64,000 bases of DNA from Erysipelotrichaceae bacterium. GTDB taxonomy: Bacteria; Bacillota_I; Bacilli_A; ML615J-28; CAG-313. The stretch lies in NCBI GenBank assembly GCA_015059015.1, contig SVBG01000002.1, forward strand, positions 113,636-177,635, in the 5' to 3' direction. Each line of letters starts with the position of its first letter. The first letter of the stretch is position 1. The translations under genes and the position numbers were made by a program. The notes under the pieces are model-generated. The model made no database searches, was not told where the DNA came from, and worked only from the letters and a program-made list of their open reading frames with translations. Positions 1 to 39,368 of the stretch are shown here, one piece after another.

Positions 1-939
1 TACTATGTTGCAGGTTTGAAATATTCTAAAGAAACTAATTTAGTTATTCCCAATTCATATAATGGGAAAAAAATAACAGGCATTAGATTTAACGCTTTTC
101 CAAATTCTGAGTATTTAACAAGTATAGAAATTCCAAGTAGTATTAAATGTATAGAAGATAATGCATTAGTTGGCTTGTATAATTTAACAAGTATTAAAGT
201 AGATGAAAATAATTTATATTATAAGTCGATAGATGGAAATTTATATTCAAAGGATGAAAAAGTATTAATTCAATATGCTGTTGGCAAGACCGATTCCACA
301 TTTATAATACCAAATAGTATAGAAAAATTAAATATGGGAGCTTTTTATGGTGCATGTCATTTAACAAATATTGAGATACCAAATAGTGTAACTACTATTG
401 ATTCATCTGTATTCTGCGGTTGTGTAGGTTTAACTAGCATAGAAATACCAAATAGTGTAATTAGTATTGGTAGTTTCGCTTTTGTTGGTACTAACATAGT
501 AAGTATAACAATACCAGATAGCGTAACAAGCATTGGACAAAGTGCTTTTAAGAATTGTGACAAATTAGAAAATGTAATATTTTCAAATAGTTTAACATCT
601 ATTACAAAAGGTTTATTTGCTTCGTGTCATAGTTTGGAAACTTTAATAATCCCATGTAATATAACAAGTATTGAAGATGAAGCTTTTTCTTATTGCAGTA
701 AATTATCAAATATAGTAATGCCAAATAGTGTATTAAGTATTGGTTATCATGCTTTTTATTATTGTGCTAGTTTAGAAAATATTATTATTCCAAAAAGTGT
801 AGTAACAATTAAACCTTATGCTTTTGAAAAATGCTATTATTTAACAATTTATTGTGAAGCGGAATTTAAACCATCTACTTGGGATGACAAGTGGAATTAC
901 TATAATAATCATGTAATATGGGACTATACAGATAATTAA
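1..939 (+). CDS. BspA-type leucine-rich-repeat surface protein, 5' end cut by the window
   Basis: The reading frame is open from base 1, so the gene starts upstream and the TTG at 16 is not a real start. The visible part is a run of BspA/Treponema-type LRRs of about 23 residues with the recurring pattern 'I-P-N/S-S-V-x-S-I-G-x-x-A-F-x-x-C-x-x-L'. This family forms elongated extracellular solenoids used for adhesion or ligand binding. The chain ends just after the last repeat (ending 'WDYTDN') with no C-terminal membrane segment or sorting motif, so any anchor must lie in the missing N-terminus, most likely a lipobox. The same LRR class occurs in the proteins at 8066, 12338 and 35271. No terminator is evident directly downstream. 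Confidence 0.85.
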   Translation, partial: YYVAGLKYSKETNLVIPNSYNGKKITGIRFNAFPNSEYLTSIEIPSSIKCIEDNALVGLYNLTSIKVDENNLYYKSIDGNLYSKDEKVLIQYAVGKTDSTFIIPNSIEKLNMGAFYGACHLTNIEIPNSVTTIDSSVFCGCVGLTSIEIPNSVISIGSFAFVGTNIVSITIPDSVTSIGQSAFKNCDKLENVIFSNSLTSITKGLFASCHSLETLIIPCNITSIEDEAFSYCSKLSNIVMPNSVLSIGYHAFYYCASLENIIIPKSVVTIKPYAFEKCYYLTIYCEAEFKPSTWDDKWNYYNNHVIWDYTDN

Positions 940-1003
940 TTTGATATTTAAAGAACTATTATTGTAGTATTTATTTAATATATATAAATCAAATGAAAAA
1001 TAA

Positions 1004-1195
1004 CTAAAAGTTACTATTCAAAAACAAATCTTAAAAGCATATCTTCCTGCAAAACTAACAGAAGAAGAAATAAGAGAAATCATCAATTCTTTAGAAGATA
1101 AATCAATGCCTAATATAATGAAACATTTTAAACAAAACTATTTAGGCAAATGTGACATGAAACTAGTTAATAAACTAGCTAATGAAAGTAAGTAA
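1004..1195 (+). pseudogene. yqeY: C-terminal fragment of a YqeY (GatB/YqeY domain) gene
   Basis: An in-frame stretch ending at TAA 1193-1195 translates to about 60 residues that follow the C-terminal half of YqeY: 'QILKAYLPAKLTEEEIREII' lines up with the 'YLPEQLSEEEL' region, and a later 'GKCDMKLVNKLANE' matches the family's 'GKADGxLxNKL' tail. A stop codon (1001-1003) immediately precedes it and there is no start codon or ribosome site, so it is a 5'-truncated remnant. YqeY is a tRNA-amidotransferase-like domain protein of about 150 residues; the N-terminal half is absent here. A complete copy presumably lies elsewhere (inference). The remnant marks a past recombination event next to the LRR gene. 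Confidence 0.7.
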
Positions 1196-1204
1196 TTAAT
1201 TTGC

Positions 1205-12192: not shown

Positions 12193-12200
12193 AAATATTA

Positions 12201-12240
12201 GACTTTATTGTAAATATTAAATTACAATAAAGTCTTTTTT
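12201..12240 (+). terminator. Rho-independent terminator
   Basis: GACTTTATTGTAA and TTACAATAAAGTC form a perfect 13-bp stem with an eight-base loop and six Ts. It closes the CDF unit. Confidence 0.9.
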
Positions 12241-12337: not shown

Positions 12338-15300
12338 ATGAAAAATCTATTTAAATTATTAATTTGTTTGGTATTAACATTTATAACTGTATTAACAGTT
12401 GTTAATTCTAATGTTAATGAATTAGCATCAGTTGAAGCTGATAGCGAACTTGTTGCGATAACTACTGATGATGGTAGCACAATTAAATACCGCAACACTA
12501 GTACTAATATTATGCGATTAAGTGAATATAACTATCCAACACAAAACTTAAGAGCATGTTGGGTTTCTCACTTTATTGGTAGTGTTCCTAATTATACAAC
12601 AGAAACAAAATGGAAGAGCGATTTTAACCATGTTCTTGATGTTATGGAATCATATGGTTTAAATTGCGTTATATTCCATGTTAGAACACATAATAATGCT
12701 TTATATAAATCAGAATTAAATCCTGTTGCTACATTCTTTAGTAAAGTAGATTTTGATTCATTTGACCCACTTGAATGGGCAATTGAAGCAACTCACGAAA
12801 GAGGTATGGAATTCCATGCATGGATGAATCCTTATCGTATTTCAACTAATGGAACTACAACACAATATGTATCAGGTTCAATTCCTTCAGTTAACCCTGT
12901 TAATGATTCAGATAATTTACTTCAATCAGGTAATTCAATTATTTTAAATCCAGGTATACAGTCTAATCGTGATTTTATTGTTGATTCTTGTATGGAAGTT
13001 GTAGAAAACTACGATGTAGATGCAATTCATTTTGATGACTATTTCTACATTGATGGTGTTGAAACAGATAAAAATGCTGATTGGAAAAGAGAACAAGTTG
13101 ATTTATTTATTGAAGATTTATCTAATAATTTAAGAACATATAATAAGAATAATAATAAGACAGTACAACTTGGTATTGCCCCTAGTGGAATTTATCGTAA
13201 TGGTAGTTATTCTTCAAGTGCTACTTATGATTCAAATGGAAATTTAAAATCTCCACTATATTCTAATACAAGTGGTTTCGCACATTATGATAATTATTTA
13301 TATTCAGATACATTAAAATGGATTAACGAAGAATGGATTGACTATATTATGCCTCAAACATATTGGGCTTTAAGTCATCCAACAGCAAGTTTTGGTGAAC
13401 TTTCTAAATGGTGGAGTTGGGCTGTTAAAAATAAAGATGTTAATCTTTATTTATCATCAGGTTTCTATATGGCAGCAGATGGTAATTCTTATTGGAATAA
13501 AAATATAAATGAAATAAGAGACCAATTATTAAACGCAGAAATGTATGATGAAGTTGGTGGTTTTGCTTTTTATCGATATAATGATCTTCAAGGTACAAAT
13601 ACTGTTATTGAGACAGGTATGAATCTTTTAAAAACTGATTATTTTAAAACTAAAATCCCTTGTGATGTTAAAAAGTATTATGCCCCACTTTATGATACAG
13701 TAGAAGTTGAAAATGTTAAAATTGAAAATAATACTATAACTTATGATGCGTGTGAAAATGTTCGTGGGTATGTAGTTTATAAAGTAGCTAATAATACTGA
13801 AGTTGATCAAGAAGATATTAATCAAGTATATTACTATGGAACAGATTTAAGTGTTGAACTTGATGATACATCAAATTATTCATATTATGTGTCTTCAGTG
13901 AATCTTGCAAATGAAATATCAGAACCAGTTACTGAAGTAACTGAAACACCTGTTGAACCTGAACAACCTGAAATAGATACAACATTGCCTTCAATTAATA
14001 TATATAAAAAGAATGTATCTTATTCAAGTGAAACATATATGATGTTTGCGGTAAATAACACGAACTTTGATGCAAACGAAAACAATATTAAAATGTTATT
14101 CTGGAATAGTCTTCAAGATTCATATACTAAAGGAACTGAATCTTATGAAGTAACAACTTCTGGTACTACTACAATTAATGGAACAACATGTTATATATAT
14201 AAATCAAATGGACTTGCGCCAAAAGAACTAACTGATAACATCTACGCAAGAGCATATGCAGAAGTAGATGGAGAAATTATTTATTCTGATGTTATTAAAT
14301 ATAGTGTTTTAGAATACTATTACGAAATGAAAGAAGCTGGCACTATGGGTACAAACCTTGCTAATTTACTAGATGGGTTAATGAATTATGGTGCACTTGC
14401 ACAACTTAATTTTAATTATAATACTTCACGTCTTGCAAATGCTACATATTATAAAGTAAATGTAGTAAACGGCGTATTACAAGATGGATTTACAAGTGGT
14501 AGATATCAAACTACAGAAACAATCACATTAACTCCAAATGAAGCACCACTTGGTATGAAATTTGCTTATTGGAAAGATTCTAATAATAATGTAATTAGTA
14601 CATCAAAAACTGTTACACTTGGAGTGACAAAAGCAGTAAGTTATGAAGCAGTATATGAAGAAGACTTAGGTGTTACAGTATTAGATGAAATTACAATTGA
14701 TGTTGAACAATATAAAGATATAGATACAACTCTTGTTCCTACAACTGTTACATTAAGTAGTGGATTGATTACAGAAGAAGTAGAAGTTTCTTGGGATTTA
14801 TCTACATATGATAAAACAAAAGTTGGTACTCAAACAGTTTATGGAGAACTTGTAAATAGTGATTATGAATTAGAAGAACCATTAACAATGGAAATTAATG
14901 TAATAGCTTATACGCTAGAATATGATTCAATAAATAATGAATATGCTATTATTGAATATTTTGGAACAACTGCAAATGAAACAGTTCCATCTACATTTAA
15001 TGGTATCCCTATTACAAGTATTGAACAATCGGCATTCTATGAATGTACTTACCTAACAAGTTTAGTAATTCCAGAAGGGATTGAGTCAATAGGAGCATAT
15101 GCATTCCAATATTGTTCAAACTTAGTAAGTATTGAACTTCCATCAACTCTAACAAGTACAGGAACATATGCATATTCAATGTGTAGTAGTTTACAAAACG
15201 TATATTATAATGGAACAATTGAAAATTGGTGTGGTATTTCATATGATAACTTATTTGCTAATCCAATGTATTATGCACAAAGTAATTTCTATCAAAAAGA

Positions 15301-15637
15301 TAATACTGGTACATGGCAAACAGTAACAGAAATTGTAATACCAGACACTGTTACAGTAATTAAAGATTACTCATTTGCATACTTTAGAAATGTTACAAGT
15401 ATTGAGTTACCAAGTTACGTTACTACAATTGGAACAGAATCATTTAGAGCTTGTAGAAACGTAACTAGTATTGCACTTCCTTCGACATTAAAATCAATCG
15501 GTGCAAATGCATTCTATTTATGTAATTCATTAAAAACAGTTTATAATGTATCTAGTTTATATTTAACTACAGGATCTTCTAATTATGGATATATTGCTTA
15601 TTACGCAAGTAATATCTATTCATATTTGCCTGAATAA
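12338..15637 (+). CDS. Secreted GHL10 (DUF187/YddW-type) glycosidase-like protein with BspA LRRs
   Basis: 1099 residues. Sec signal peptide (1-30). The GHL10 domain (about 60-440) starts with 'NLRACWVSHF' and contains 'FHVRTHNNALY', 'FHAWMNPYRIS', 'IHFDDYFY' and 'DYIMPQTYW', the conserved barrel strands of the YngK/YddW glycosyl-hydrolase-like family that acts on cell-wall or other glycans. Next are an FN3-like segment (465-540), an acidic Pro/Glu linker, an 'IYKKN...YSSE' module (550-775) also present at 35271, a Big-type Ig domain (778-870) and BspA LRRs (880-1099). No sorting signal is present. GGAGG lies six bases upstream of the ATG. A close paralogue of the enzyme part is at 27140. Confidence 0.82.
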   Translation: MKNLFKLLICLVLTFITVLTVVNSNVNELASVEADSELVAITTDDGSTIKYRNTSTNIMRLSEYNYPTQNLRACWVSHFIGSVPNYTTETKWKSDFNHVLDVMESYGLNCVIFHVRTHNNALYKSELNPVATFFSKVDFDSFDPLEWAIEATHERGMEFHAWMNPYRISTNGTTTQYVSGSIPSVNPVNDSDNLLQSGNSIILNPGIQSNRDFIVDSCMEVVENYDVDAIHFDDYFYIDGVETDKNADWKREQVDLFIEDLSNNLRTYNKNNNKTVQLGIAPSGIYRNGSYSSSATYDSNGNLKSPLYSNTSGFAHYDNYLYSDTLKWINEEWIDYIMPQTYWALSHPTASFGELSKWWSWAVKNKDVNLYLSSGFYMAADGNSYWNKNINEIRDQLLNAEMYDEVGGFAFYRYNDLQGTNTVIETGMNLLKTDYFKTKIPCDVKKYYAPLYDTVEVENVKIENNTITYDACENVRGYVVYKVANNTEVDQEDINQVYYYGTDLSVELDDTSNYSYYVSSVNLANEISEPVTEVTETPVEPEQPEIDTTLPSINIYKKNVSYSSETYMMFAVNNTNFDANENNIKMLFWNSLQDSYTKGTESYEVTTSGTTTINGTTCYIYKSNGLAPKELTDNIYARAYAEVDGEIIYSDVIKYSVLEYYYEMKEAGTMGTNLANLLDGLMNYGALAQLNFNYNTSRLANATYYKVNVVNGVLQDGFTSGRYQTTETITLTPNEAPLGMKFAYWKDSNNNVISTSKTVTLGVTKAVSYEAVYEEDLGVTVLDEITIDVEQYKDIDTTLVPTTVTLSSGLITEEVEVSWDLSTYDKTKVGTQTVYGELVNSDYELEEPLTMEINVIAYTLEYDSINNEYAIIEYFGTTANETVPSTFNGIPITSIEQSAFYECTYLTSLVIPEGIESIGAYAFQYCSNLVSIELPSTLTSTGTYAYSMCSSLQNVYYNGTIENWCGISYDNLFANPMYYAQSNFYQKDNTGTWQTVTEIVIPDTVTVIKDYSFAYFRNVTSIELPSYVTTIGTESFRACRNVTSIALPSTLKSIGANAFYLCNSLKTVYNVSSLYLTTGSSNYGYIAYYASNIYSYLPE

Positions 15638-15644
15638 ACAAATT

Positions 15645-15680
15645 GACTTTATAGAGATATTTTCTCTATAAAGTCTTTTT
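15645..15680 (+). terminator. Rho-independent terminator
   Basis: GACTTTATAGAGA / TCTCTATAAAGTC, perfect 13-bp stem, then five Ts. Confidence 0.9.
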
Positions 15681-15724
15681 CTTTTTCTAAAAAAATCAAA
15701 TCTAAATAAATTTTTCTAAAAAAG

Positions 15725-16671: not shown

Positions 16672-18381
16672 ATGAAACGTGTAATTAGTTATTTTAGACC
16701 TAATTTATTAAAAGTAATATTATGTTTAACTATTAAAATATCAGGTGTAATAGCTGAATTATTCATACCGATTATTCTTTCATATATACTAGATACAGTT
16801 GTAGATACTGGTACAATTTTAGATATCGTTTTATATGGACTATTAATGGTAGTTTTATCAGGGCTTGGATTTTTAGGAAATTGTAAAGCTAATCAAATTG
16901 CAGCTGGTGTTGCAAAAAGTGTATCAGTTAACTTACGAAAAGATTTATTTACTAAAATAATGTCACTTAGTCAATCTCAGGTAGATAGTGTTACAATGCC
17001 AAGTTTAATAGCAAGAATGTCAAGTGATACATATAATATTCATCAAATGTGTGGAATGATTCTTCGTCTTGGTGTTCGTGCTCCAATGTTATTAATTGGA
17101 GGTACAGTTTGTACTTTATTCTTAGATCCAATGCTTACATTAATAATGATACTTATTTTACCACTTGTTATACTTGCTTTATATATTACTTCTAAATATG
17201 GAATTCCATTATATGATAGAGTTCAAACAAGAGTTGATAAAATGGTATTGTCTATTAGAGAAAATATGACAGGAATAAGAGTAATTAAAGCATTATCTAA
17301 AGAAGACTATGAAAAGAAACGATTTAATACTGTTAATAAAGAATTAATGGATTATGAACTTAAATCAAGTATTGTAATGGCTACTCTTAATCCTGTAATT
17401 AATTTAATCTTAAACTTTGGTTTAATATTTGTAATAGTTGTTGGTGCATATCGTGTTAATAATGGTATAATACTACCTGGAAAAGTTTTATCATTTACAA
17501 CATTCTTTGCGATGATATTAAATGCATTAATTGCCTTAAATAGAATGATTACAATTATTTCTAAGGCATACGCATCATCAAAAAGAATTGATTATATTTT
17601 TGATTTAGGACTTGATTTACGAAAAGAGACTTATAATAATACATCTAAACATTATATAGAATTTAAAAATGTAAACTTCTCATATCTAGGTAAAGTTAAT
17701 AATTTATCTAATATTTCTTTTAAATTAGAAAAGGGTGAAACACTAGGTATTATTGGACCTACAGGTAGTGGTAAAAGCACAGTTATTAATTTATTACTAA
17801 GACTTTATGATGTAAATAGTGGTGCTATATATATTAATGGAAAAGATATAAGAAGTTATTCTTATCGAAAACTTAAATCTTTATTTGGTGTATCTTTTCA
17901 AAATGATACACTTCTTGCAGATACAATATATAATAACGTTGATTTTTATAGGAAATTATCAAAAAACGAAATTAAGAAAGCGTTATTAGTTTCACAGTCT
18001 TTCTTCGTAGAAAATCTAGAATTAAAAGAACAAACACAACTATCTGCTAAAGGAACAAACCTTTCTGGTGGACAGCGACAAAGACTAATCTTAGCACGTG
18101 CACTTGCGGGTAATCCAAAAATATTAATTCTTGATGATTCATCTAGTGCACTAGACTATAAAACTGATCTTGCATTAAGAGAAGCAATTAAAGAAAACTA
18201 TAAGAATACTACTAAAATAATAATCGCATCACGTATTAGTTCAATAATTAATGCTGATAAAATAATAGTACTTGAAGATGGTATAGTTACAGGTTTAGGA
18301 ACACATAATGAACTTCTTATGAATAATAACTTGTATAAAAGTATCTATAATATTCAACTAGGAGGTGATACTCATGAATAG
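16672..18381 (+). CDS. ABC exporter half-transporter, subunit with degenerate ATP site
   Basis: 569 residues: six-helix exporter membrane domain (1-310), then a nucleotide-binding domain. Walker A is intact (GPTGSGKST, 362-370) and the signature is canonical (LSGGQ, 464-468). In Walker B the catalytic Glu is Asp489 ('LILDDSS'), and the H-loop His is Ser520 ('IASRISS'). This is the pattern of the degenerate partner in heterodimeric exporters such as BmrCD and TM287/288. Its stop overlaps the next subunit by 8 bases, so both should be made in equal amounts. AAAGGAG precedes the ATG. The substrate is unknown; drugs, lipids or peptides are possible. Confidence 0.9.
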   Translation: MKRVISYFRPNLLKVILCLTIKISGVIAELFIPIILSYILDTVVDTGTILDIVLYGLLMVVLSGLGFLGNCKANQIAAGVAKSVSVNLRKDLFTKIMSLSQSQVDSVTMPSLIARMSSDTYNIHQMCGMILRLGVRAPMLLIGGTVCTLFLDPMLTLIMILILPLVILALYITSKYGIPLYDRVQTRVDKMVLSIRENMTGIRVIKALSKEDYEKKRFNTVNKELMDYELKSSIVMATLNPVINLILNFGLIFVIVVGAYRVNNGIILPGKVLSFTTFFAMILNALIALNRMITIISKAYASSKRIDYIFDLGLDLRKETYNNTSKHYIEFKNVNFSYLGKVNNLSNISFKLEKGETLGIIGPTGSGKSTVINLLLRLYDVNSGAIYINGKDIRSYSYRKLKSLFGVSFQNDTLLADTIYNNVDFYRKLSKNEIKKALLVSQSFFVENLELKEQTQLSAKGTNLSGGQRQRLILARALAGNPKILILDDSSSALDYKTDLALREAIKENYKNTTKIIIASRISSIINADKIIVLEDGIVTGLGTHNELLMNNNLYKSIYNIQLGGDTHE

Positions 18382-20152
18382 AAGACGTGGAGTATCTTTC
18401 TCTAGAGGGAAAGCTAAAAATAAAAAATATACATTTAGAAGACTTTGGAATTACTTATTTAAGTTTAGATTTCTACTTATTCTTGCGTTAATACTAACTA
18501 TTGCATCAAACATTCTAGCTCTACTTGGACCTAAACTTACAGGACTAATAATGGATGAAATAGATGTTGAAGAAGCAAATATTAATTTTGGTAATATATA
18601 CTATTATGCAGGTTTAATGGCTTTATTTTATTTAACATCAAGTATCTTTACATTTTTTATTTCTTTAGTTATGACTAATATTAGTAAACGATGTGTTTAT
18701 ACAATGAGACGCGATGCGTTCAATAAACTTCTTAGTTTACCAATATCTTATTTTGATAAAAATCAAATAGGTGATATTATTAGTAGAATGTCGTATGACA
18801 TTGATACGGTTAATACTTCTTTATCTACTGATTTAGTTCAAATACTAACAAGTATTATTACAATTATAGGTTCTCTTGTAATGATGATAATTGTATCACC
18901 AATATTAGTATTAGTATTTGCAGTAACACTACCTATTAGTTTATTATTTACAAGAATTATGATTAAAAAAACTAGTAAGCACTTTAAAGCAAGATCAAAT
19001 AATTTAGGAATTTTATCTGCATATAACGAAGAAATGATTACAAGCGTTAAAACAATTAAAGCATACGGAAAAGAAGAAGAAATAATTGATAACTTTAATA
19101 TTGTTAATGAAGAAGCTGCTCATTCTACTTATCTTGCGGAATACTATAGTGCATATACAGGTCCAGGAGTTAATTTTGTTAATAACCTATCTTTGTCACT
19201 AATTTGTTTATTTGGTGCAATTCTATATAAAAAGAGTTTATTATCACTTGGTGATATATCTTCATTTGTTCTATATTCCAAGAAATTCTCAGGCCCAATT
19301 AATGAAATAGCAAACATTTTAACAGACTTACAAAGTGCACTTGCTGCAGCTGAAAGAGTATTTGAACTTATTGACGAAGAAATAGAAACACCTGATATAA
19401 TAGATGCGATAGATTTAGAAGTAGAACTTGGCCATATTGAATTTAAAAATGTATATTTTGGTTATGAACAAAATAAAATAATCTTAAAAAATGTATCATT
19501 TAATGCATTACCTGGTAAACAAATAGCAATTGTTGGTCCAACTGGTGCTGGTAAAACAACAATAGTAAATTTACTTATGCGTTTTTATGATATTAATAGT
19601 GGTTCAATATATTTAGATGAAAATAACATACAGCTTATTAAAAGAGCATCGTTAAGAAAATCATATGCAATGGTTCTTCAGGATACTTGGTTATTTGAAG
19701 GAACGATATATGAAAATCTAAGTTATGGAAGTAACAATGTAACACTAGAAAAAGTAAAAGAAGCAGCAAAAGCTTCTAGAATTGATACATTTATAGAAAG
19801 CTTGCCAGATGGTTATGATACGATTTTATCAGAAGGTGGAACTAATATATCTAAAGGACAAAAACAACTTCTAACTATTGCTCGCGCAATGCTTCTAGAT
19901 GCTAAAATGTTAATTTTAGATGAAGCAACATCAAATGTTGATACCATTACAGAACTTAAAATTAGAGATGCTATGAAAAACTTAATGAAAGATAAAACTT
20001 CATTTATTATTGCTCATAGATTATCAACAATTAAAAATGCCGATTTAATATTAGTTGTAAAAGAGGGAAATATTGTAGAACAAGGTACTCATAAAGAATT
20101 AATTGAAAAACAAGGGTTCTATTATGAATTACATAATTCACAATATAGTTAG
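18374..20152 (+). CDS. ABC exporter half-transporter, catalytic subunit
   Basis: 593 residues. ATG 18374 follows AGGAGGTGAT, better than the GTG at 18365 that lies inside this site. Membrane domain, then an NBD with Walker A GPTGAGKTT (388-396), Walker B 'LILDEATS' with Glu517, and H-loop His548, all canonical. Its signature is ISKGQ (492-496), weaker than LSGGQ. Because each ATP site combines the Walker motifs of one subunit with the signature of the other, this weak signature faces the degenerate Walker B of the partner, giving one active and one impaired site in the dimer. Confidence 0.92.
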   Translation: MNRRRGVSFSRGKAKNKKYTFRRLWNYLFKFRFLLILALILTIASNILALLGPKLTGLIMDEIDVEEANINFGNIYYYAGLMALFYLTSSIFTFFISLVMTNISKRCVYTMRRDAFNKLLSLPISYFDKNQIGDIISRMSYDIDTVNTSLSTDLVQILTSIITIIGSLVMMIIVSPILVLVFAVTLPISLLFTRIMIKKTSKHFKARSNNLGILSAYNEEMITSVKTIKAYGKEEEIIDNFNIVNEEAAHSTYLAEYYSAYTGPGVNFVNNLSLSLICLFGAILYKKSLLSLGDISSFVLYSKKFSGPINEIANILTDLQSALAAAERVFELIDEEIETPDIIDAIDLEVELGHIEFKNVYFGYEQNKIILKNVSFNALPGKQIAIVGPTGAGKTTIVNLLMRFYDINSGSIYLDENNIQLIKRASLRKSYAMVLQDTWLFEGTIYENLSYGSNNVTLEKVKEAAKASRIDTFIESLPDGYDTILSEGGTNISKGQKQLLTIARAMLLDAKMLILDEATSNVDTITELKIRDAMKNLMKDKTSFIIAHRLSTIKNADLILVVKEGNIVEQGTHKELIEKQGFYYELHNSQYS

Positions 20153-20166
20153 AATTTAAGATAAAG

Positions 20167-20199
20167 AATAGTTTACATATATTTGTAAACTATTTTTTA
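20167..20199 (+). terminator. Rho-independent terminator
   Basis: AATAGTTTACA / TGTAAACTATT, 11-bp perfect stem with six Ts. Ends the ABC operon. Confidence 0.88.
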
Positions 20200-20225
20200 T
20201 ATTTTCTTTACTTTTTTCAAAATTA

Positions 20226-20234
20226 TGGTATAAT
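20226..20234 (+). promoter_or_regulatory. Extended -10 promoter with long leader
   Basis: TG-G-TATAAT. The start near 20241 leaves a leader of about 145 bases before the ATG at 20387. The leader contains AT-rich dyads (GAATATAT...ATATATTC near 20243, AAAGTTTTAAACTTT near 20279) but no riboswitch I recognise. Confidence 0.5.
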
Positions 20235-20386
20235 AAGAGTATGAATATATTTAGGGAATATATCTATATATTCAAATTAAAGTTTTAAACTTTCTATAAT
20301 CCATCTTTTATATTTTTGACATTATAATAAATTACTAACTAAAGATGAATAAAGTAGAAATAAATTATTATAAAGGGAGAAATAAA

Positions 20387-23300
20387 ATGAAGAAAATTAT
20401 TTACATTTTTATTATGTTATTAGCAATAATTGTAGTAACAACTAAAGCATCAAATGTAGAAGCTGCTAGTGCTCCTGAACTTATTGATGGTGCACAAATC
20501 AGAACAGATAATTTAAATGGTATTAAATTTGTTGCTAATGTTACTCCAGTTGATGGTGCTACATATGGATTTGTAGTAGGTCAAGGAACAGTAGTTGATT
20601 TAACTGTTGACACACCTAATACGATTACTGGTGAAACTACAACTTTAAATGAAGAAAGTCAATTTTATGTAACAATTGTTAATATTCCAGAACGTGCTTA
20701 TGCACAAAATTTATCAGTTAGAGCATACGTTTTAATTGATGGTGAATATACATATTCTACTAACATTGTTACAAGAAGTGTTGGTCAAGTTGCATTAGGT
20801 GCACAAGTAAAAGGAACTGAAGGTGAATATATTGAAACAGTTGCTGGAAGCATTCTAGAAAACTATAAGAAAGTTCACGTTGACTATCCTGGTAATACAC
20901 ATGTAGATGATGTTTTATATGAAACTGATCATAAAAAACTTGCTGAAAAATTTGTTGAAGATTGGAACGCAATGTTTGAAACTACACTAGATGCAGAAAC
21001 TGCATTTGTTCAAGGAGACAACTATGCTTCACCATTCAAAACTGCTGCAAGAAATAATTCTACAACTAATCCAGAAGGTGCTAATATTACTGCATTCTTC
21101 CGTGATGAAGCAATGTATAATAAATGGGGTTGGATTTTAGATTATATTCAAAATGAATTAACTACAGGTTTAGCATTTTCTGCTTGTGAATCACAAATTA
21201 ATTGTATTTTAAATAATACTACTGATGAAACAGGCAACTGGTATTATGGTTTAACACTTGCTTCTTATTTACAAAGTATTTTCTGTGGTAAAGGATCTTC
21301 TACAGGTTCTGGTAGATTTAACTTTGAAAGAAGCGTAGAAAATATGGAAAAACTAGCATTAATTGTAAATTACAACAATAAAGTATATTCTACATTTGGT
21401 GAACTTAAACTTGTAAAAGTTGGTAGTGATCTTAAGTTAGAAGAATTATCAAAAGAAAATTATAATTTTGATGGTTATAGTATAAATGGCACATTATACA
21501 ATGAAACATACAATGTTACAAACGATAACGTATTATTAATGCCTACATTTACAGCTGTTGAATATGATATTAAATACTATAAAGATGGTGTTGAATTAAC
21601 TGACTTAGCAGATGTTTATACAGTAGAAGATGCTGTAACACTTCCAACTATTACAGTTGAAGGTTATGACTTTGTTGGTTGGTGTGAAGATGAAGCTTGT
21701 GAAGGTGAAGTAGTTACATCACTTTCTGAAGGAAGTAGTGGTGATAAAGTATATTATGCTAAATATGTTGAAAAACAATTAAAGGATGTTAATGTTACAT
21801 ATGACTTAAATGGTGGTTACTTTAACTATCCTTCATTAGATGATGCTATTGCTGATTTTATTGTTGATTTTAATGCGTCACGCAATAGAACTCATACCGC
21901 TTCAACATTCTATGCATTAGGATCTTGGAGTGAAATTAGCGATGCTTCTAATTTCTTATATGATGCTAATTATAAAGCTAAATGGTCGTGGTTAGTTGAG
22001 TATCTTGCTACTACTGCAATAACAGCAACTAATAAAAAAGCATTTGAAGTTTTCCATAATTATACTAAGCAATCAGAACTTAATGCTGCAAACTCTAATT
22101 ATATTTATTGTATTGCATATGAACTTCGTGGTTGGGTTGGTAAAGCTCAATATACTCAAAATTCAAGTTTTAAATCTGCAAATTATTCTTCACTTATTGC
22201 ACAATCTGAAACAGCAGCAAAAGGACAAACTGCATACACATATAAAGACCCTTGTGACTTAGAAGTTCCTACAAAAGATGGGTATGAATTTATTGGTTGG
22301 ACATCAAGCATTAATGGTCAAGTAGTCACTACATTCCCTGGTTATTATGATAATCCTGGTGATATTACATATACTGCTGTATGGGAACAAATAGCTCCTG
22401 TATTAAATGTATCTATTTATGTAGATGCATCTGCTACAACAGGTAGTGTTTATGAAGCAAATGGTAAAGAATATGTTTATGGAACTGATTTATTTGCAAC
22501 TATTACTGATGCACTTGCGAATGCTGTAGAAAACGATACTATTTATGTTCTTGCTGGTACATATTCAGATGCTATTACTATTTCTACTGCAAATATTACA
22601 ATTTGCGGTCCAAATGCAGGTGTTCCATATAATGGTAGTCGTAATGAAGAAGCAGTTATTAGTGGAACAATTTCAGTTTCTGCAAATAACTTTAAACTTG
22701 ATGGTGTTAAATTTACAGGTACTCAAATTAAAGCTACACAAGCTTTAGAGGGTTTAACAATTCTAAATATAGTATCTCAAAGTAATGGTGCTTTAATTCA
22801 AGATTCTGGTGGACGTCATGCAGTACTTGGTTCAAATTATAACCTTAGTAATTTAGTAATTAGAAATTCTAAGTTCTATGTTCCTTACGCAACTGATGGT
22901 AAAAATGGTCTTGCATTCTATGGTATTGTAACAAATGCTAATATTGAAAATAATAGTTTTGTAAATAAACTTACAGCATCTGCATTAAATGAAGCTATCT
23001 TACTTCAAAAAGTTGCTGGAGAAATTTATGTAACTAATAATAATATTGATTGGTCAACAGATAACTATTCTATTTTCTTAGGTAGTGGATCTAACTCTGC
23101 AACAGTAATTGATGTTTTAGATAATGTAGTTAATTGTTCAAATACAACTTATCATACTTCTGGTATTGCAATTAGACGTATTCCTGCTTCTACAACAGTA
23201 AATATTGTAGGTAATAAGATTTACAATATGGGTGGAAATACATTTAACTTCCAATATGCTGTAAGTGGTTCTAAAGTTAATATTTCTTATAACTACTTTG

Positions 23301-23473
23301 ATGCTAATACTTCATTTAAGTGTAACGTAGCTGGTAGTGCAACAATTACTACAAATAATAACTGTTACGCTGGTGGTATTACAACTGCTAATGGACATAA
23401 TCCTAATACATCAACAGAAACTACTTATGCAAATCTTGCTGCTTTAGAAGAAGCTTATGCTAAAGTAAAATAA
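20387..23473 (+). CDS. Secreted multi-domain surface protein: InlB repeats, duplicated helical module, beta-helix
   Basis: ATG 20387 follows AAAGGGAG; the upstream in-frame ATG at 20345 has no ribosome site. 1028 residues. Sec signal peptide ending near 'NVEAA'. An all-beta N-terminal domain (about 25-155) with 'LSVRAYVLIDGEYTYS' recalls modules in the proteins at 12338 and 35271. A module of about 130 residues appears twice (about 185-325 and 485-615), sharing 'F-V/I-x-D-F/W-N-A' and 'KW-x-W-x-x-x-Y', each next to InlB-type repeats ('DFVGWCEDE', 'EFIGWTSS'). The C-terminal third (690-1015) is a right-handed beta-helix starting at 'DTIYVLAGTYSDAITI'. No anchor is visible. Ends at a strong terminator. 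Confidence 0.75.
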   Translation: MKKIIYIFIMLLAIIVVTTKASNVEAASAPELIDGAQIRTDNLNGIKFVANVTPVDGATYGFVVGQGTVVDLTVDTPNTITGETTTLNEESQFYVTIVNIPERAYAQNLSVRAYVLIDGEYTYSTNIVTRSVGQVALGAQVKGTEGEYIETVAGSILENYKKVHVDYPGNTHVDDVLYETDHKKLAEKFVEDWNAMFETTLDAETAFVQGDNYASPFKTAARNNSTTNPEGANITAFFRDEAMYNKWGWILDYIQNELTTGLAFSACESQINCILNNTTDETGNWYYGLTLASYLQSIFCGKGSSTGSGRFNFERSVENMEKLALIVNYNNKVYSTFGELKLVKVGSDLKLEELSKENYNFDGYSINGTLYNETYNVTNDNVLLMPTFTAVEYDIKYYKDGVELTDLADVYTVEDAVTLPTITVEGYDFVGWCEDEACEGEVVTSLSEGSSGDKVYYAKYVEKQLKDVNVTYDLNGGYFNYPSLDDAIADFIVDFNASRNRTHTASTFYALGSWSEISDASNFLYDANYKAKWSWLVEYLATTAITATNKKAFEVFHNYTKQSELNAANSNYIYCIAYELRGWVGKAQYTQNSSFKSANYSSLIAQSETAAKGQTAYTYKDPCDLEVPTKDGYEFIGWTSSINGQVVTTFPGYYDNPGDITYTAVWEQIAPVLNVSIYVDASATTGSVYEANGKEYVYGTDLFATITDALANAVENDTIYVLAGTYSDAITISTANITICGPNAGVPYNGSRNEEAVISGTISVSANNFKLDGVKFTGTQIKATQALEGLTILNIVSQSNGALIQDSGGRHAVLGSNYNLSNLVIRNSKFYVPYATDGKNGLAFYGIVTNANIENNSFVNKLTASALNEAILLQKVAGEIYVTNNNIDWSTDNYSIFLGSGSNSATVIDVLDNVVNCSNTTYHTSGIAIRRIPASTTVNIVGNKIYNMGGNTFNFQYAVSGSKVNISYNYFDANTSFKCNVAGSATITTNNNCYAGGITTANGHNPNTSTETTYANLAALEEAYAKVK

Positions 23474-23483
23474 ACAATTAAAA

Positions 23484-23519
23484 ATACTCCACTAAGATTT
23501 AGTGGAGTATTAATTTTTT
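23484..23519. terminator. Rho-independent terminator (first copy)
   Basis: ATACTCCACTAA / TTAGTGGAGTAT, 12-bp stem with a three-base loop, then TAATTTTTT. Identical to the hairpin at 25907; it belongs to the tspO-derived repeat and now ends the beta-helix gene. Confidence 0.9.
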
Positions 23520-23658
23520 AGATATAACATTATTGAATATATTGTTGCAAAAGTAGTCCATAAGATATATGGTATATATAAAAGAGTTATACGTTTATTT
23601 AATAGAAGAACTTGCATAGATAAAAGTATTGCAGTAATATATGTAAATAATGTAAATT
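23510..23658 (-). pseudogene. tspO: Truncated C-terminal copy of tspO
   Basis: On the minus strand this encodes the last 40-odd residues of the TspO protein at 25933, with the same stop codon. The two base differences inside the matching part are both synonymous ('QVLLLN' is unchanged). The frame loses similarity upstream of about 23658 and there is no start. It is the partner of the intact gene in the direct repeat. Confidence 0.8.
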
Positions 23659-23741
23659 AAGAATTGAATCACAAAAATTAATTAACTTCATATATTATGG
23701 TGTAATTAGTTATCATATGTATTGAAAAATAATATTATTTG

Positions 23742-23750
23742 TGGTATATT
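23742..23750 (+). promoter_or_regulatory. Possible extended -10 promoter of the island genes
   Basis: TG-G-TATATT, overlapped by a further TATAAT at 23749. AAGGGAGAAG (about 23767) follows, but the nearest ATG after it opens only very short frames. The segment 23658-23823 otherwise holds nothing recognisable. Confidence 0.35.
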
Positions 23751-23823
23751 ATAATTGAAATATAATAAGGGAGAAGATATGTTATTATGAATAAAATAAT
23801 TATAATATGTTGTGAAGTGTATA

Positions 23824-24400
23824 ATGATTAAATTTAAAATGACTTTTGTTTTTATATGTTTAGCTTTAATAATTATATTTTTTAAGAATTAATGTTAATG
23901 CTTCAAGCATACAATTTAATGATGCTAAAGTGAAATTATCTGATAGTACAACGGTTAATTTAAATAGTGGTGAAAATTCAGTTATTAAAAATGAAATATA
24001 TGTATGTGATAATGAAATTGAAATAAATAATTATAATGTGTATTTAAATGTCAATAATAATGATGATGCAATTTATAATGAAGTATTACCGATTGAAGAT
24101 GATATATCAAATGTGGATGTTGTAACAATATGTGGCTATTTAAAGTGGCTAGGACGTTCACAAGATGGTACTTTTATGTGCCCGATTACAATTAATACAA
24201 CAAGATTAATATGTCTTGGAGGTGACTCTCCATCGCCTTATTTACAAAATTTTGTATGGACATCTAGCAGTAATAGTGTCATTGTTAGTTCCTTTGGAAC
24301 TATTACTGCTATAGAACAATTTGATAGCATTGTTACAATAACAGGAGTATATAAGTATAATGAAAGATTTATTGTAACAATTAATCTTGTTTACGTTTAA
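23824..24400 (+). CDS. Secreted Ig-like (Big_2) protein whose signal peptide is out of frame
   Basis: From ATG 23824 a signal peptide 'MIKFKMTFVFICLALIII' is read, but the frame stops at 23890. The next frame continues without a stop through 'INVNASSIQF' to 24400. Removing one T from the six-T run at 23878-23883 joins the two into a normal secreted protein of about 190 residues. The only in-frame start of the long part is GTG 23930, which lacks a ribosome site. The C-terminal 80 residues match a bacterial Ig-like Big_2 fold ('FVWTSSSNSVIVSSFGTITA'). It is a sequencing error, a fresh pseudogene or a phase-variable gene; the sequence cannot decide. Confidence 0.6.
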
Positions 24401-24430
24401 TAATAAATTGTAAAAAGAAAGGAGTTTAAA

Positions 24431-25900
24431 GTGAGGAAAAATTTATTAATTATTTTATTATTTTTCATTTGTTTAAGTGGATGTCGCAGTAATAATCAAA
24501 TTAAAGAACAAAAAAATCAAAATGCCCCCATATATACTCAAAATGATCCTCAAAATACTCAAAAAGATAAGCACACTAATTCTTTCAATGATAAAAATGT
24601 AACATATAAAATAGGTGATTATGTGTTTTATGAAACGACAACAAGTGAAAATGAAATTGTAGAGTATGATTGGATTTATGTTGAAAATTATATGCAATTT
24701 CTTGTTGATGAATATCATTATTTATATATGACTAGTGGAACTACAATTGATTGTATCTTAAATGTTAAATGGAATAAAGTTGAAGATAATAATAATATAA
24801 TTATGAATGCAGAAGTTAAAAGTATTTTAAGAGCTGGTATTTTTGATGTATATAATTATTCTTTAAATACTGATGATATTTTAATATCTGGAATTATATA
24901 TTCTGATGATCCAACTTTTGTATATCCTGAGTTTGTATATAGAAATATAAATAATGAAATAGTAACTAAAGATTCATTTAGATTTGTTGATTTTGAATTA
25001 TTAGAATTTGAGGAATCACTTGGGGAATTAATTTATGATGATGTTGATGTAAATACTTTTATTGTGAAAGACGCAAATCAATTAGTTTATTGTAATTCTG
25101 AAATAAATAAAATAGTAATTCCTGAACAATATACAAAAAATAAATCTATTCCAGGATTTTTATTTAGTAATAAGAATAAACTTGATGAAATAGAAATATC
25201 AGGAGACGTTGGACAAATCAATCCTAATGCTTTTGTTGATTCAGCATATAAGATTACTATTAAAGGGAATATAAAAAATATTGAACCTCTAGGATTTGTA
25301 TCAGGTTGTGAGATTACCATTAACGGAAATATTGAAAATTATAACAAATATTCTTTTTATAAGTGTGATAAAATTAATTATGATAATGGAATATTTCAAG
25401 TACTTGATTATTTTGAAAATAAACGATATGATATAGGACTATTTATCGAATTTAAAAATAGTTATAATTTGAGTGAAGGAATTAAAATATTATATACTCC
25501 TTATGTTGATACTAAGTTTGAATATGATGGAGATTTAATTGTTTCATATAATGTTGATAATAAAGATAATAATAGTAACATTGTAGAAAGTATTATACTA
25601 GATGATAATTTAGAAATATATCGTGAGTCAAAAATTAATTACAATCAAGACTATTATTTATGGAGTAAGTTTGTTGGACGCGAATTTCAACAAGAAAGTT
25701 TAAAAGAAATTGTTATTACTGAAAGTGAATTATCTAGTGAAACTGGAATTTTATTTTTTTCAGCTGAATTTATTGATGAAGATAGATTTGATAATCTAAT
25801 TTATATTTGCAAAGTTTTATGTTCATTAAAATATGAAATAATTGATGATGTTATTTATTTACAATATAATGATGTTGTATATTCCCTAGACACTATATAA
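24431..25900 (+). CDS. Lipoprotein with degenerate BspA-like repeats
   Basis: 489 residues from GTG 24431, eight bases after AAAGGAG. Lipobox CLSG-C at about residue 18. A Lys/Asn/Gln-rich linker (20-55) leads to a beta-rich domain, then a short run of degenerate LRR-like units (about 225-320: 'INPNAFVDSAYKITIKGNIK'), and an acidic beta-rich C-terminus. It follows the Ig-like gene by 30 bases and shares its operon. Both genes lie between the two tspO-derived repeats, which suggests they arrived together. Function unknown. Confidence 0.7.
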   Translation: MRKNLLIILLFFICLSGCRSNNQIKEQKNQNAPIYTQNDPQNTQKDKHTNSFNDKNVTYKIGDYVFYETTTSENEIVEYDWIYVENYMQFLVDEYHYLYMTSGTTIDCILNVKWNKVEDNNNIIMNAEVKSILRAGIFDVYNYSLNTDDILISGIIYSDDPTFVYPEFVYRNINNEIVTKDSFRFVDFELLEFEESLGELIYDDVDVNTFIVKDANQLVYCNSEINKIVIPEQYTKNKSIPGFLFSNKNKLDEIEISGDVGQINPNAFVDSAYKITIKGNIKNIEPLGFVSGCEITINGNIENYNKYSFYKCDKINYDNGIFQVLDYFENKRYDIGLFIEFKNSYNLSEGIKILYTPYVDTKFEYDGDLIVSYNVDNKDNNSNIVESIILDDNLEIYRESKINYNQDYYLWSKFVGREFQQESLKEIVITESELSSETGILFFSAEFIDEDRFDNLIYICKVLCSLKYEIIDDVIYLQYNDVVYSLDTI

Positions 25901-26081
25901 TTAAAAATACTCCACTAAGATTTAGTGGAGTATTAATTTTTTAGATATAACATTATTGAATATATTGTTGCAAAAGTAGTCCATAAGATATATGGTATAT
26001 ATAAAAGAGTTATACGTTTATTTAATAAAAGTACTTGCATAGATAAAAGTATTGCAGTAACACAAGTAAATAGTGTAAATA
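25899..26081. repeat. Direct repeat copy 2: terminator plus intact tspO 3' end
   Basis: Matches 23476-23658. This copy is continuous with the full tspO gene, so it is probably the original. Confidence 0.9.
25907..25942. terminator. Bidirectional terminator (second copy)
   Basis: Same 12-bp hairpin as at 23484, placed between the convergent lipoprotein gene and tspO, with a T-run on the plus side. Confidence 0.9.
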
Positions 26082-26400
26082 AGTAACCTAAAAATAAATT
26101 TTCAAGAACAAAGAATCCAAGTGGAAATAAAAAGATGAAGACATAGTTTATAAACATTAGGATAAAGTATGTTCTAAATTCTTTTTTATCATATGTTTTT
26201 CTATTACTAAATAAATAAGTATTAATAAATGATAAAATAGCGAATAAAATTGTCCATACTATTATAAATACAATATTAGGAATAAAAGTTCCTTCTAATG
26301 ATTTATAAAAACCATTGTCACTTCTAAATAAAATTGAAGGTAGGAAATATACAAATAAGCCAAGTAAAAAGAATAAAATGTTTTTTAATGTTTTGTTCAT
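25933..26400 (-). CDS. tspO: TspO/MBR family membrane protein
   Basis: 155 residues from ATG 26400, which has AAAGGA upstream; the extended frame to 26439 lacks a ribosome site. Five hydrophobic segments, with 'YKSLEGTFIPN-VFIIVWTILF' corresponding to the conserved TspO 'P-x-W-x-F-x-x-x-W' region in divergent form, and 'YIPYILWTTFATI' as the family's fifth helix. TspO proteins bind porphyrins or sterol-like ligands and affect stress responses. The 3' end is duplicated at 23476. Confidence 0.75.
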   Translation of the reverse strand: MNKTLKNILFFLLGLFVYFLPSILFRSDNGFYKSLEGTFIPNIVFIIVWTILFAILSFINTYLFSNRKTYDKKEFRTYFILMFINYVFIFLFPLGFFVLENLFLGYLFTLFTCVTAILLSMQVLLLNKRITLLYIPYILWTTFATIYSIMLYLKN

Positions 26401-35151: not shown

Positions 35152-35268
35152 ATGAAAAAAGAATTTGAAACTCCCACAATTGAAATCATCAATTTTGATG
35201 AAAACATTAATTTAGGACCAAATGACGAATGGTACGATTCAAATGTTGATATGGGTGGGTGGATTTAA
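35152..35268 (+). CDS. 38-residue peptide, RiPP-precursor-like
   Basis: A short frame with a strong site (AAGGAG, seven bases before ATG 35152). It begins 'MKKEFETPTIEIINFDENIN', which has the 'K-x-x-x-x-P-x-x-E-x-I-x-F' opening of many small Firmicutes peptides proposed as ribosomal-peptide precursors or signals, and ends in a Gly/Trp-rich acidic tail ('NEDWY'-like, finishing 'MGGWI'). It stops two bases before the ATG of the large surface protein at 35271. No maturation enzyme, protease or dedicated exporter gene is adjacent. Whether it is a signal, a modified peptide or a leader controlling the downstream gene is open. Confidence 0.6.
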   Translation: MKKEFETPTIEIINFDENINLGPNDEWYDSNVDMGGWI

Positions 35269-35270
35269 TT

Positions 35271-38200
35271 ATGAAAAAGAATTTATTTAAATTATTATTT
35301 GTAATGTTATTCTTATTAACAATTTCGTTTACAATTGTTTTAAAAAATAGCAATTTTGCAGAAGCAGACGAAATCGTAGAAACTGAAGAAGTAGTAGAAC
35401 CTTCACTTAATATATATAAAAAGAATATTTCATATTCAAGTGAAATCTATGTTATGTATGCAGTTTCATATGAAGGAATAGATGTAACAACAAATCCAGT
35501 TAAAATGTTATTCTATAACACTGTTCAAGATGAATATACAACACAAACTGCGGCATATATTGCACCGTCAAAAGGTGGAACTATTATTGATAATGAGACT
35601 TGTCAAATATTCTCATCTAATGGGCTTGCGGCTAAACAAATGACAGATGATATCTACGCAAGAGCTTATGTTGAAGTAGAAGGACAAACTATTTATTCAG
35701 AAGTAGTAAAATACAGTGTACTTGAATATTACTATGAAATTAAAGAAGCAGGTACTGCTTCAACTAATATCTTAAATTTACTTGATGCTATGATTAATTA
35801 TGGTGCTGCAGCACAAACTAACTTTAACTATAATACTGAAAAATTAGCTAACGCAACATATTATAAAGTAAGTGTAGAAAACGCAGTATTACCTGATGGC
35901 TTTACAAGTGGAAGATTTAAGGCTGAAGAACAAGTAACACTTACTGCACCTTTAAAAGAAGGTTATGTATTTACTGGATGGACTAATTCAAATGATGAGG
36001 TTGTATCAACTGAATCAACTTATACACTAACAATAACACAAGATGAAACATTAACTGCTAATTATATTGATGCTTCTGTTGTAACACTAAATCTAACAAA
36101 AGAAGTAGCTTATGACGCAACTCTTTCTACACTAGACTTACCTACAACTGTTACATTTGATTATAATAATGAAACAGTAACAGAAAATGTTACATGGGAT
36201 ACAACTTCATTTGTAGTAAATCAAATCGGTAAACAAAAGTTATATGGAACATTATCTAATGATTCATATAAAGTAAATGAACTTAGTATTGAAATAGATG
36301 TATTACCATATACATTTAGTTTAAATGAATCAGGAAATAAATACACCATTACTAAATATTATGGAAATGATTCAGAGATTACTATTCCATCTAAATTTAA
36401 CAATATAATTATTACATGTATAGGAGACTATGCCTTCGCTTATTGTAGAAATTTAGCAAGTATAACAATTCCGAGTAGTATTATAAGAATTGGAGATTCT
36501 GCCTTTTATAGTTGTAAAAGTTTGACAAACGTAGAAATCCCTAATAGTGTGACAACTATTGGGAACAAAGCGTTCTATTTTTGTGAAAGTTTAACAAGCA
36601 TAACAATCCCGAGTAGTGTAACAAGTATAGGAGCCCTTGCCTTCGATGACTGTAGTAGTTTAGAAAGCATAACAATTCCAAGTAGCGTAACAAGTATAGA
36701 AAGAAATGCCTTCTATAATTGTAGTAGTTTAACAAATGTATATTACGAAGGAACGATAGAATCTTGGTGTAATTTCTTATTTAATGATTATTATTCTAAT
36801 CCAATGTATTATGCTGATCACTTCTATTTGAAAAATGAAAAAGATAATTGGTATGAAGTAACAGAAATAGTAGTACCTGATACAATTACTGAAATAGGAG
36901 AATATCAATTCTGTAGATTTAAAAATGTAACAAGTATAACAATCCCAAATATTGTGTTAAGTATCGGGAAGTATGCCTTCTATAATTGTAGTAGTTTAAC
37001 AAATATAATAATTCCGGAAGGAGTTACAAGCATTGGTATGTTCGCTTTTAATAATTGTAATAGTTTAACAAGCATAACAATCTCAAATAGTGTCATAAGT
37101 ATTGACGCGAAAGCTTTCGAATATTGCAATAATTTATCAAATGTATATTATGAAGGAACAATAGAAGATTGGTGTAATATTTCATTTGGAAGTTCTTATT
37201 CTAATCCAATGTACTATGCAGATTATTTTTATATGAAAAACGAAAAAGGTGATTGGTATGAAGAAACAGAAATAGTAATACCTGAAACAATTACTGAAAT
37301 AGGTGATTACCAATTTTGTAGTTTTAATAATTTTACATATATTGAAATTCCTAAAAATTTAACTAATATAGGTAAAGATGCTTTCTATGATTGGACAAGT
37401 ATGGAAAATGTATATTATAACGGCACAATAGAAAATTGGTGTAACATTTTGTTTGAAGGATTATATTCAACTCCAATGTATTATGGTGCAAGTTTCTATA
37501 TGTTAACTGAAAATGATATTTATGAAGAAGTTACTGAGGTTAGTATTCCAGAATCAATAACATCTATAGGAAATTATCAATTTTTTTGCTTTGATAATTT
37601 AACAAGTGTAGAAATTCATGAAAGTGTAAAAAGTATCGGATATGGTGCATTTGGAAAATGTTCAAATTTAGAAAAAATTGTATTACCTGAAAGTGTAGAA
37701 AGTATAGGTGACTCAGCATTTCGTGAAAGTGGATTAGTTGATGTTAAAATTTATAGTAAAATAAGTTATTTAAGCAATTATATGTTTAGCGGGTGTAGTA
37801 GTTTAGTATCAGTTGAACTTCCTGAAGGATTAGTAGATTTAGGTAGTGATGCTTTCTTTAAATGTTCTAAATTAGAAACAATAAATATTCCAAGTACTGT
37901 GACTAGATTAGGAATGAGAACATTTGCTTATTGTAGTAGTTTAACAAGTATAACAATTCCAAGTGGAGTTACAGGAATATCTCAACTTCCATTTGCTGGT
38001 TGTTCTTGTGAAATATTATGGAATAACCCTACAATTCAAGGTTTTTATGACTTTGGATTTGCTGATTATAAAGGAGAAAGCTTAATAATACCAAATACAG
38101 TTAAATATATATCATCTTATGCCTTTAATACTTGCAATAATTTAGCAGATATTTATTATCAAGGAACTGAAGAAGAATGGAATAATATTGAAATAGGTAC

Positions 38201-39251: not shown

Positions 39252-39368
39252 GGATCTTATCTTAAGTACCTTCATCCAAGGTTGCATAGCGAACCAGGTC
39301 AGATCGTGATTGAAGCAGCCTTAAACTTTTTGTAACTTGTGGGTGGGGGGACTTAAGATATAGATCTG
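39252..39368 (+). ncRNA. ffs: Signal recognition particle RNA, small bacterial type
   Basis: About 115 nt. The terminal stem pairs GATCTTATCTTAAGT (39253) with ACTTAAGATATAGATC (ends 39366) with a bulge. The conserved domain IV core is present: GGTCAG at about 39298 and GAAGCAGCC at about 39312. The six bases at the hairpin tip are GTGATT where nearly all bacterial SRP RNAs have CGGAAG, so the standard GGAA tetraloop is changed. A run of Ts follows the stem. SRP RNA binds Ffh and targets membrane proteins. No Alu domain of the B. subtilis type is present. Confidence 0.85.

Follow-up and report, generated by a model that had tools for sequence, protein, structure and literature searches.

Headless 3′ ends of conserved genes beside inserted surface-type genes at tspO and other loci of an uncultured gut bacterium

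The tspO locus and its direct repeat

The window analysed here is a 64,000-nucleotide stretch of contig SVBG01000002.1 from an Erysipelotrichaceae bacterium (assembly GCA_015059015.1). From left to right, the locus consists of an ABC transporter gene, a first inserted segment with a 1042-aa surface-type gene (cassette 2), a 3′ end of tspO without the rest of the gene, a second segment with an Ig-like remnant and a leucine-rich repeat (LRR) gene (cassette 1), and an intact tspO (Table 1).

Table 1. Features of the tspO locus and of the yqeY locus, in window coordinates
Feature	Position	Strand	Basis or remark
C-terminal part of inserted 629-aa LRR gene (start left of window)	16..939	+	LRR domain
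Headless yqeY 3′ end	994..1198	+	205 bp, 92.7%; YqeY family; intact gene just left of window, C7:112150-112575
ABC transporter gene, left neighbour of empty site	18365..20152	+	Pfam ABC_membrane, ABC_tran; adjoins tspO in G003 and G004
Cassette 2, with 1042-aa surface-type gene (20345-23473)	20155..23475	+	Absent here in G003 and G004; List_Bact_rpt repeats
Copy 1, terminator and headless tspO 3′ end	23476..23660	-	Repeat comparison
Terminator-like hairpin, copy 1	23483..23511	strand-neutral	Terminator scoring
Cassette 1, Ig-like remnant and LRR lipoprotein gene	23661..25890	+	Absent from tspO locus of G003 and G004
Broken Ig-like surface gene	23824..24400	+	22-residue start, stop, C-terminal part in other frame
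489-aa LRR_5 protein	24431..25900	+	PF13306, E 1.2e-07; lipoprotein-like N terminus by eye
Native-junction remnant at LRR gene end	25891..25903	+	13 nt match to ABC gene end, one mismatch to G003 junction
Copy 2, terminator and 3′ end of intact tspO	25899..26083	-	Repeat comparison
Terminator-like hairpin, copy 2	25906..25934	strand-neutral	Terminator scoring
Intact tspO	25933..26400	-	ORF, Pfam

We found that the 161 bases of 23476-23636 match those of 25899-26059 except at 23605/26028 and 23609/26032, both synonymous positions in tspO; this confirms the near-identical repeat reported in the initial annotation. The homology extends to 23660/26083 with six further differences (8/185) and then falls to background identity; on the other side it ends at 23476/25899. 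Repeat finding returned two copies of 216 nt with 90% identity and a spacing of 2423. Copy 1 lacks the 5′ part of tspO and is referred to as headless, and copy 2 is continuous with an intact TspO/MBR gene (Pfam PF03073, E 4.8e-13), again as first described. When the tspO end was searched against 60 genomes, the matches in its own genome were the query itself (E 8.4e-289), copy 1 (E 1.4e-82) and four short weak ones. The match to copy 1 places the repeat far beyond chance.

A hairpin with a 13-pair stem is present in both copies and is scored as a terminator whichever strand is read, and four terminator-like hairpins were found compared with a mean of 0.7 in shuffled sequences. Each cassette abuts one copy of the same hairpin, so the proposed terminator on both sides is present in this genome, but the corresponding junction in the relative G004 (described below) has no such hairpin. 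Recombination between the two tspO repeats could possibly excise the sequence between them.

The two genes of cassette 1 had both been taken for surface genes. The one at 24431 encodes the 489-aa LRR protein. The one at 23824 is an interrupted remnant, whose relative in G004 is an ORF of 1048 aa. The LRR protein had matches only in its own genome and G004 among the 60 genomes, which include its own. The G004 relative is 34% identical and lies on another contig than the tspO locus, directly after an Ig-like gene, so that the pair is found together there too. By eye, the G004 pair (L062:7492-15642, G004:C20) precedes another ABC transporter gene pair, and the pair in the window lies beyond an ABC pair. 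The 1042-aa protein of cassette 2 belongs to a large paralogous set: 15 of 16 genomes gave matches to it, and its own genome alone gave 40. The G+C content of cassette 1 is 23%, compared with 26.7% for the window, and 2.1% of 618 windows of the same length are equally low.

A phage or plasmid origin of the cassettes was considered and rejected: three stretches of viral contigs fitted the LRR protein pattern and none was confirmed, and no plasmid matched it. Among the PHROGs families, the LRR lipoprotein matched one weak family of unassigned function (E 2e-4), and the LRR part of the insert at yqeY matched two strong families, also of unassigned function.

The empty site in two relatives

Among the 60 genomes searched, only RGIG1779 (G003; goat cecum; 93%) and RGIG9028 (G004; water deer rectum; 80%) gave long matches to the tspO end. 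Both are same-genus assemblies of ruminant-gut Bacilli, and the near relatives of the source genome are metagenome-assembled genomes. In both, the ABC gene, which ends at window position 20152, directly meets the convergent tspO at a single junction without an insert. This is the empty site that had been proposed for sister strains, and the island is absent from this place in both relatives that have the locus rather than present there in all of them.

The window holds 5736 bases between the flank alignments to G003 and 5750 between those to G004. The G003 flank alignments overlap by 16 bases, because the end of the ABC gene is partly repeated at 25891-25903. Furthermore, the 1042-aa gene is also missing from between ABC gene and tspO in both relatives. 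The insert is therefore two cassettes with the headless tspO end between them, about 5.7 kb in all (about 20155-25890), and not the single unit bracketed by the repeats that the initial annotation had drawn. The 13-nt match to the ABC gene end occurs at three places on the window + strand, namely 20139 (the ABC end itself), 25891 and 36399. These 13 nt of the ABC/tspO junction survive, with one mismatch, at the end of the LRR gene, which identifies the junction at copy 2 as the original one.

Headless gene ends elsewhere in the genome

We scanned 853,248 bases of the source genome, the window included, for repeats that take in gene ends, and found three more headless 3′-end copies beyond surface-type genes, at yqeY, ligA and a gene for a 306-aa protein. 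The names ligA, malQ and pfkB-like are presumptive, taken from reading the sequences alone. The inserts are a 629-aa LRR protein at yqeY, a 378-aa ORF at ligA and five ORFs of 433, 180, 1658, 93 and 271 aa at the 306-aa gene, as compared with the Ig-like remnant and LRR gene at tspO. LRR domains were detected in the scanned part of the 629-aa protein and in the 1658-aa ORF. The inserted 433-, 271- and 378-aa ORFs had no Pfam match and were judged lipoprotein-like by their N termini.

The yqeY scar is as clean as that of tspO. In G003 and G004 the intact yqeY is followed directly by the leader that in the source genome follows the headless yqeY copy, and this marks the 629-aa insert as the recent addition and the distal part as the older sequence. 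At ligA, the flanks are joined in G003 with a 46-base overlap, an empty site, and the G004 stretch compared had no match to the locus. The ligA copy has decayed, with 5 of 45 positions different and two stops.

The 306-aa locus is more complex. In G004 the next gene stands right behind the 306-aa gene (flank alignments 85 bases apart), and in G003 ORFs of 451 and 285 aa follow it without a fragment. A 65-bp stretch upstream of the gene is repeated at 65 of 65 positions after the 1658-aa ORF (103450-103514 and 111741-111805), and in G004 part of this ORF has a relative on the upstream side of the 306-aa gene (a 1299-aa ORF, with 67% over 1300 nt). These two observations indicate that the locus was built in more than one step, possibly by a larger duplication followed by loss.

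A conserved hairpin leader precedes the surface-type genes that follow yqeY and the 306-aa gene (window about 1200-1345; L191 at C3:104519, L192, L193, L194 and L190). It had no Rfam match in the window or in L112. Its pattern occurs in 4 of 60 genomes, and the window copy, one base shorter, falls outside it.

Next, a strict test was applied in which the last, first and middle 180 nt of each ORF of at least 130 aa were searched for copies within 12 kb and outside other such ORFs. In the source genome, 3′-end copies were found for 4 of 589 ORFs (yqeY, tspO, ligA and the 306-aa gene), all downstream of the gene. There were two 5′-end copies, one AT-rich and one between Rhs-like ORFs, and two middle copies, one of which was the yqeY fragment again. 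The control genomes G005, G006 and G052 gave no 3′-end copy, no 5′-end copy and one middle copy among 552 ORFs, a contrast of small numbers that we give without significance. The G003 and G004 stretches together had no 3′-end copy and one 5′-end copy among 180 ORFs. A looser scan was less clean: in control G052 it paired seven 3′ ends with intergenic sequence, every one belonging to an ORF of 88-125 aa.

Several other candidates were set aside. The 1099-aa gene at 12338-15637 is absent in G003, and its apparent repeat proved to be two terminators with similar stem ends and different loops (12193-12240 and 15638-15690). Repeats at C7:102418/105812/107494, 32111/33686, 207579/210343 and 306905/312841 and five on C14 looked intergenic by eye and were left out of the count. 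Left of the window, C7:102418-102887, 105797-106264 and 107494-107959 are three copies (88-96%) of a 470-bp element with a small hydrophobic ORF, which we take to resemble a type I toxin-antitoxin element. Two further repeats were noted, one of 352 bp and 76% identity next to additional genes of G004, the other of 130 bp and 72% at window -7435/-5358.

Origin of the copies

To compare the intact and headless ends, copy pairs were aligned over 147 nt for tspO, 186 nt for yqeY and 123 nt for the 306-aa gene, with ends chosen by hand. Pooled over the three pairs, there were 14.5 synonymous differences at 99 sites and 10.5 non-synonymous differences at 357 sites (rates of 0.146 vs 0.029; binomial p 2e-4 from the rounded 14/25), an excess that depends on where the edge is cut. 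The synonymous and non-synonymous counts were 4 and 2 for tspO, 4.5 and 4.5 for yqeY, and 6 and 4 for the 306-aa gene. All six tspO differences lie 96-141 nt from the stop, and seven of the nine in yqeY lie 162-186 nt from the stop with an identical interior. The differences of both genes are mostly at the outer edge, with identical interiors, as at a recombination joint. By reading of the alignment, eight sites of the 306-aa pair can be judged against G004, and the fragment and its intact copy each match it at about four of them. Where the tspO copies differ, it is mostly the intact one that matches the relatives, a pattern that a decaying fragment would produce as well.

The synonymous enrichment suggests that the fragments may derive from another strain's functional allele rather than from decay. 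The initial annotation had reached a similar view from tspO differences that seemed synonymous only; the allele-like pattern holds, but with the edge included the pair has four synonymous and two non-synonymous differences in 147 nt.

The arrangement is best read as additive recombination between strains, to which we give about an even chance. A donor's gene plus cassette would have been added onto the resident gene end, in the manner of homology-facilitated illegitimate recombination or of insertion with long target duplication, and gene-end homology likely guided the insertion. The repeat, the empty sites, the two cassettes, the parallel scars and the synonymous excess are observed; the donor, the entry of its DNA, the illegitimate joint and the order of events are given here as we infer them. 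A donor strain would have carried surface-type genes beside the 3′ end of a conserved gene, here tspO with its terminator. Its DNA would have paired with the resident copy of that gene, with one joint homologous and the other illegitimate, inside the 3′ part of the resident gene. The product would run from the intact gene through the new cassette and a headless gene end to the prior content, here the 1042-aa gene, and the repeated hairpin would supply each cassette with a terminator. The observed order of parts is compatible with a homologous joint on one side only. Under this history, the LRR pair probably stood beside tspO in one lineage and the 1042-aa gene in another, and the second lineage then took up DNA of the first. 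A circle that integrated through a single crossover in the gene end would give the same order, and we count it within the same explanation. The earlier proposal that the genes arrived by recombination at the tspO end appears largely right in the light of the empty sites and the absence of the LRR gene from this place in the relatives, although its limits of the island were wrong.

In favour of additive recombination are the single-junction empty sites, the same design at yqeY, ligA and the 306-aa gene, the synonymous excess, the edge placement of the differences at tspO and yqeY, the lack of a shared core and the RecA family, detected in 6 of 6 genomes. Against it weigh the dependence of the excess on the cut of the edge, the equal counts at yqeY, the agreement of the intact tspO with the relatives, the stepwise build-up of the 306-aa locus and the G052 pairs of the looser scan. 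For natural uptake the signs are mixed, with the ComEC family in 6 of 6 genomes and the DprA family in 0 of 6. Transposition was rejected. Only one inverted pair reaches both ends of cassette 1, and it is the palindrome of the terminator. Integrases of genomic islands keep their target gene intact through a repeat, and the repeat does so here. Site-specific integration at gene 3′ ends, as for many such islands, is nevertheless highly improbable in our view: no integrase or transposase family was found in the nine larger inserted ORFs scanned, and the four gene ends share no clear core. Their longest common words are 7-11 nt, and two of six gene-end pairs equal or surpass the 95% level for random pairs, the margin being no more than one base. 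An assembly artefact or strain mixture is very unlikely. In its favour, short reads resolve repeats of this length poorly, the near relatives are metagenome-assembled, and the same sequence would also fit a locus lacking cassette 1 together with a 2423-bp circle. On the other side, four separate loci share the same order, the contig is 313 kb long and contamination of the genome is listed at 0.41%; moreover, the joint at the head of each fragment is unique sequence and so offers no overlap from which a false join could arise.

Insertion with long target duplication, taken separately, would copy the end of the resident gene, so that the copies start identical and the useless one decays. We consider this rather unlikely, although its geometry is that described for Helicobacter pylori (PMC4978471, PMC1643837, PMC3154945), where the insert is also reported to lie between long direct target repeats and a related genome to have a one-copy empty site. 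In the present genome, the inserts are flanked by direct target repeats whose length ranges from tens to hundreds of bp, relatives have single-copy empty sites (tspO and yqeY in G003 and G004; ligA in G003), the ligA copy has decayed, and the tspO fragment bears most of the changes relative to the relatives. The synonymous excess, the edge clustering at tspO and yqeY and the evenly divided matches of the 306-aa pair to G004 argue against it. The H. pylori case is described mainly for restriction-modification genes, whereas here the genes are surface-type and the copies resemble different alleles. We regard as quite improbable a larger tandem duplication, of the merodiploid type made by transformation, from which most of the second copy of the gene was later lost. 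The 65-bp stretch at the 306-aa locus does stand before the expected site of that second copy, and merodiploid formation by unequal exchange, leaving two copies of resident DNA as here, is known in Streptococcus pneumoniae (PMC3784515). However, the merodiploids described there span about 100-900 kb and form via existing repeats, in contrast to the 45-205 bp of gene end found here. The repeat at tspO and yqeY comprises only the 3′ end, and the sequences outside it are not alike.

Additive recombination of this kind has a parallel in the type VI secretion system (T6SS) effector-immunity modules of Vibrio cholerae, for which sequential displacement by homology-facilitated illegitimate recombination was proposed (PMC5361080). 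In that report, a conserved anchor likewise has non-homologous cargo beside it, a 3′-end remnant of the displaced gene is left and older cargo is pushed outward. The V. cholerae anchor precedes the toxin module, and what is displaced belongs to the cargo, whereas here a housekeeping-gene anchor stays intact and the cargo consists of surface-type genes at several loci. Our literature search, within the text available for its sources, found no closer precedent than these systems. The tspO case looks like a repeatable type of gene uptake that is already known, and by itself it is a modest example of this kind of recombination.

In a bolder and less probable reading, the ends of conserved genes might serve this gut lineage as recurrent docking points for surface cassettes of other strains. 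The latest arrival would stand beside the gene, earlier ones would be displaced away from it, and a headless gene end would close off each, in an integrase-free analogue of an integron at several loci. The several loci of this one genome suggest how surface-protein genes can be gained by an uncultured gut bacterium with no evident help from mobile-element machinery and without damage to the anchor gene. Because each headless fragment is a scar with an orientation, any genome can be screened for such fragments, which makes the frequency and order of additions measurable.

Some further features were noted. At window 35259-39119 there is a 1286-aa surface-type gene, in the place of which G003 has a 482-aa ORF that by eye resembles a transposase. 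At C3:229910-240660 of the source genome, large restriction-modification-like ORFs stand, by eye, between two recombinase-like ORFs of 545 and 546 aa, and Rhs-like tips lie close by. Just beyond the 1286-aa gene, window 39263-39358 encodes the Bacterial small SRP RNA (RF00169).
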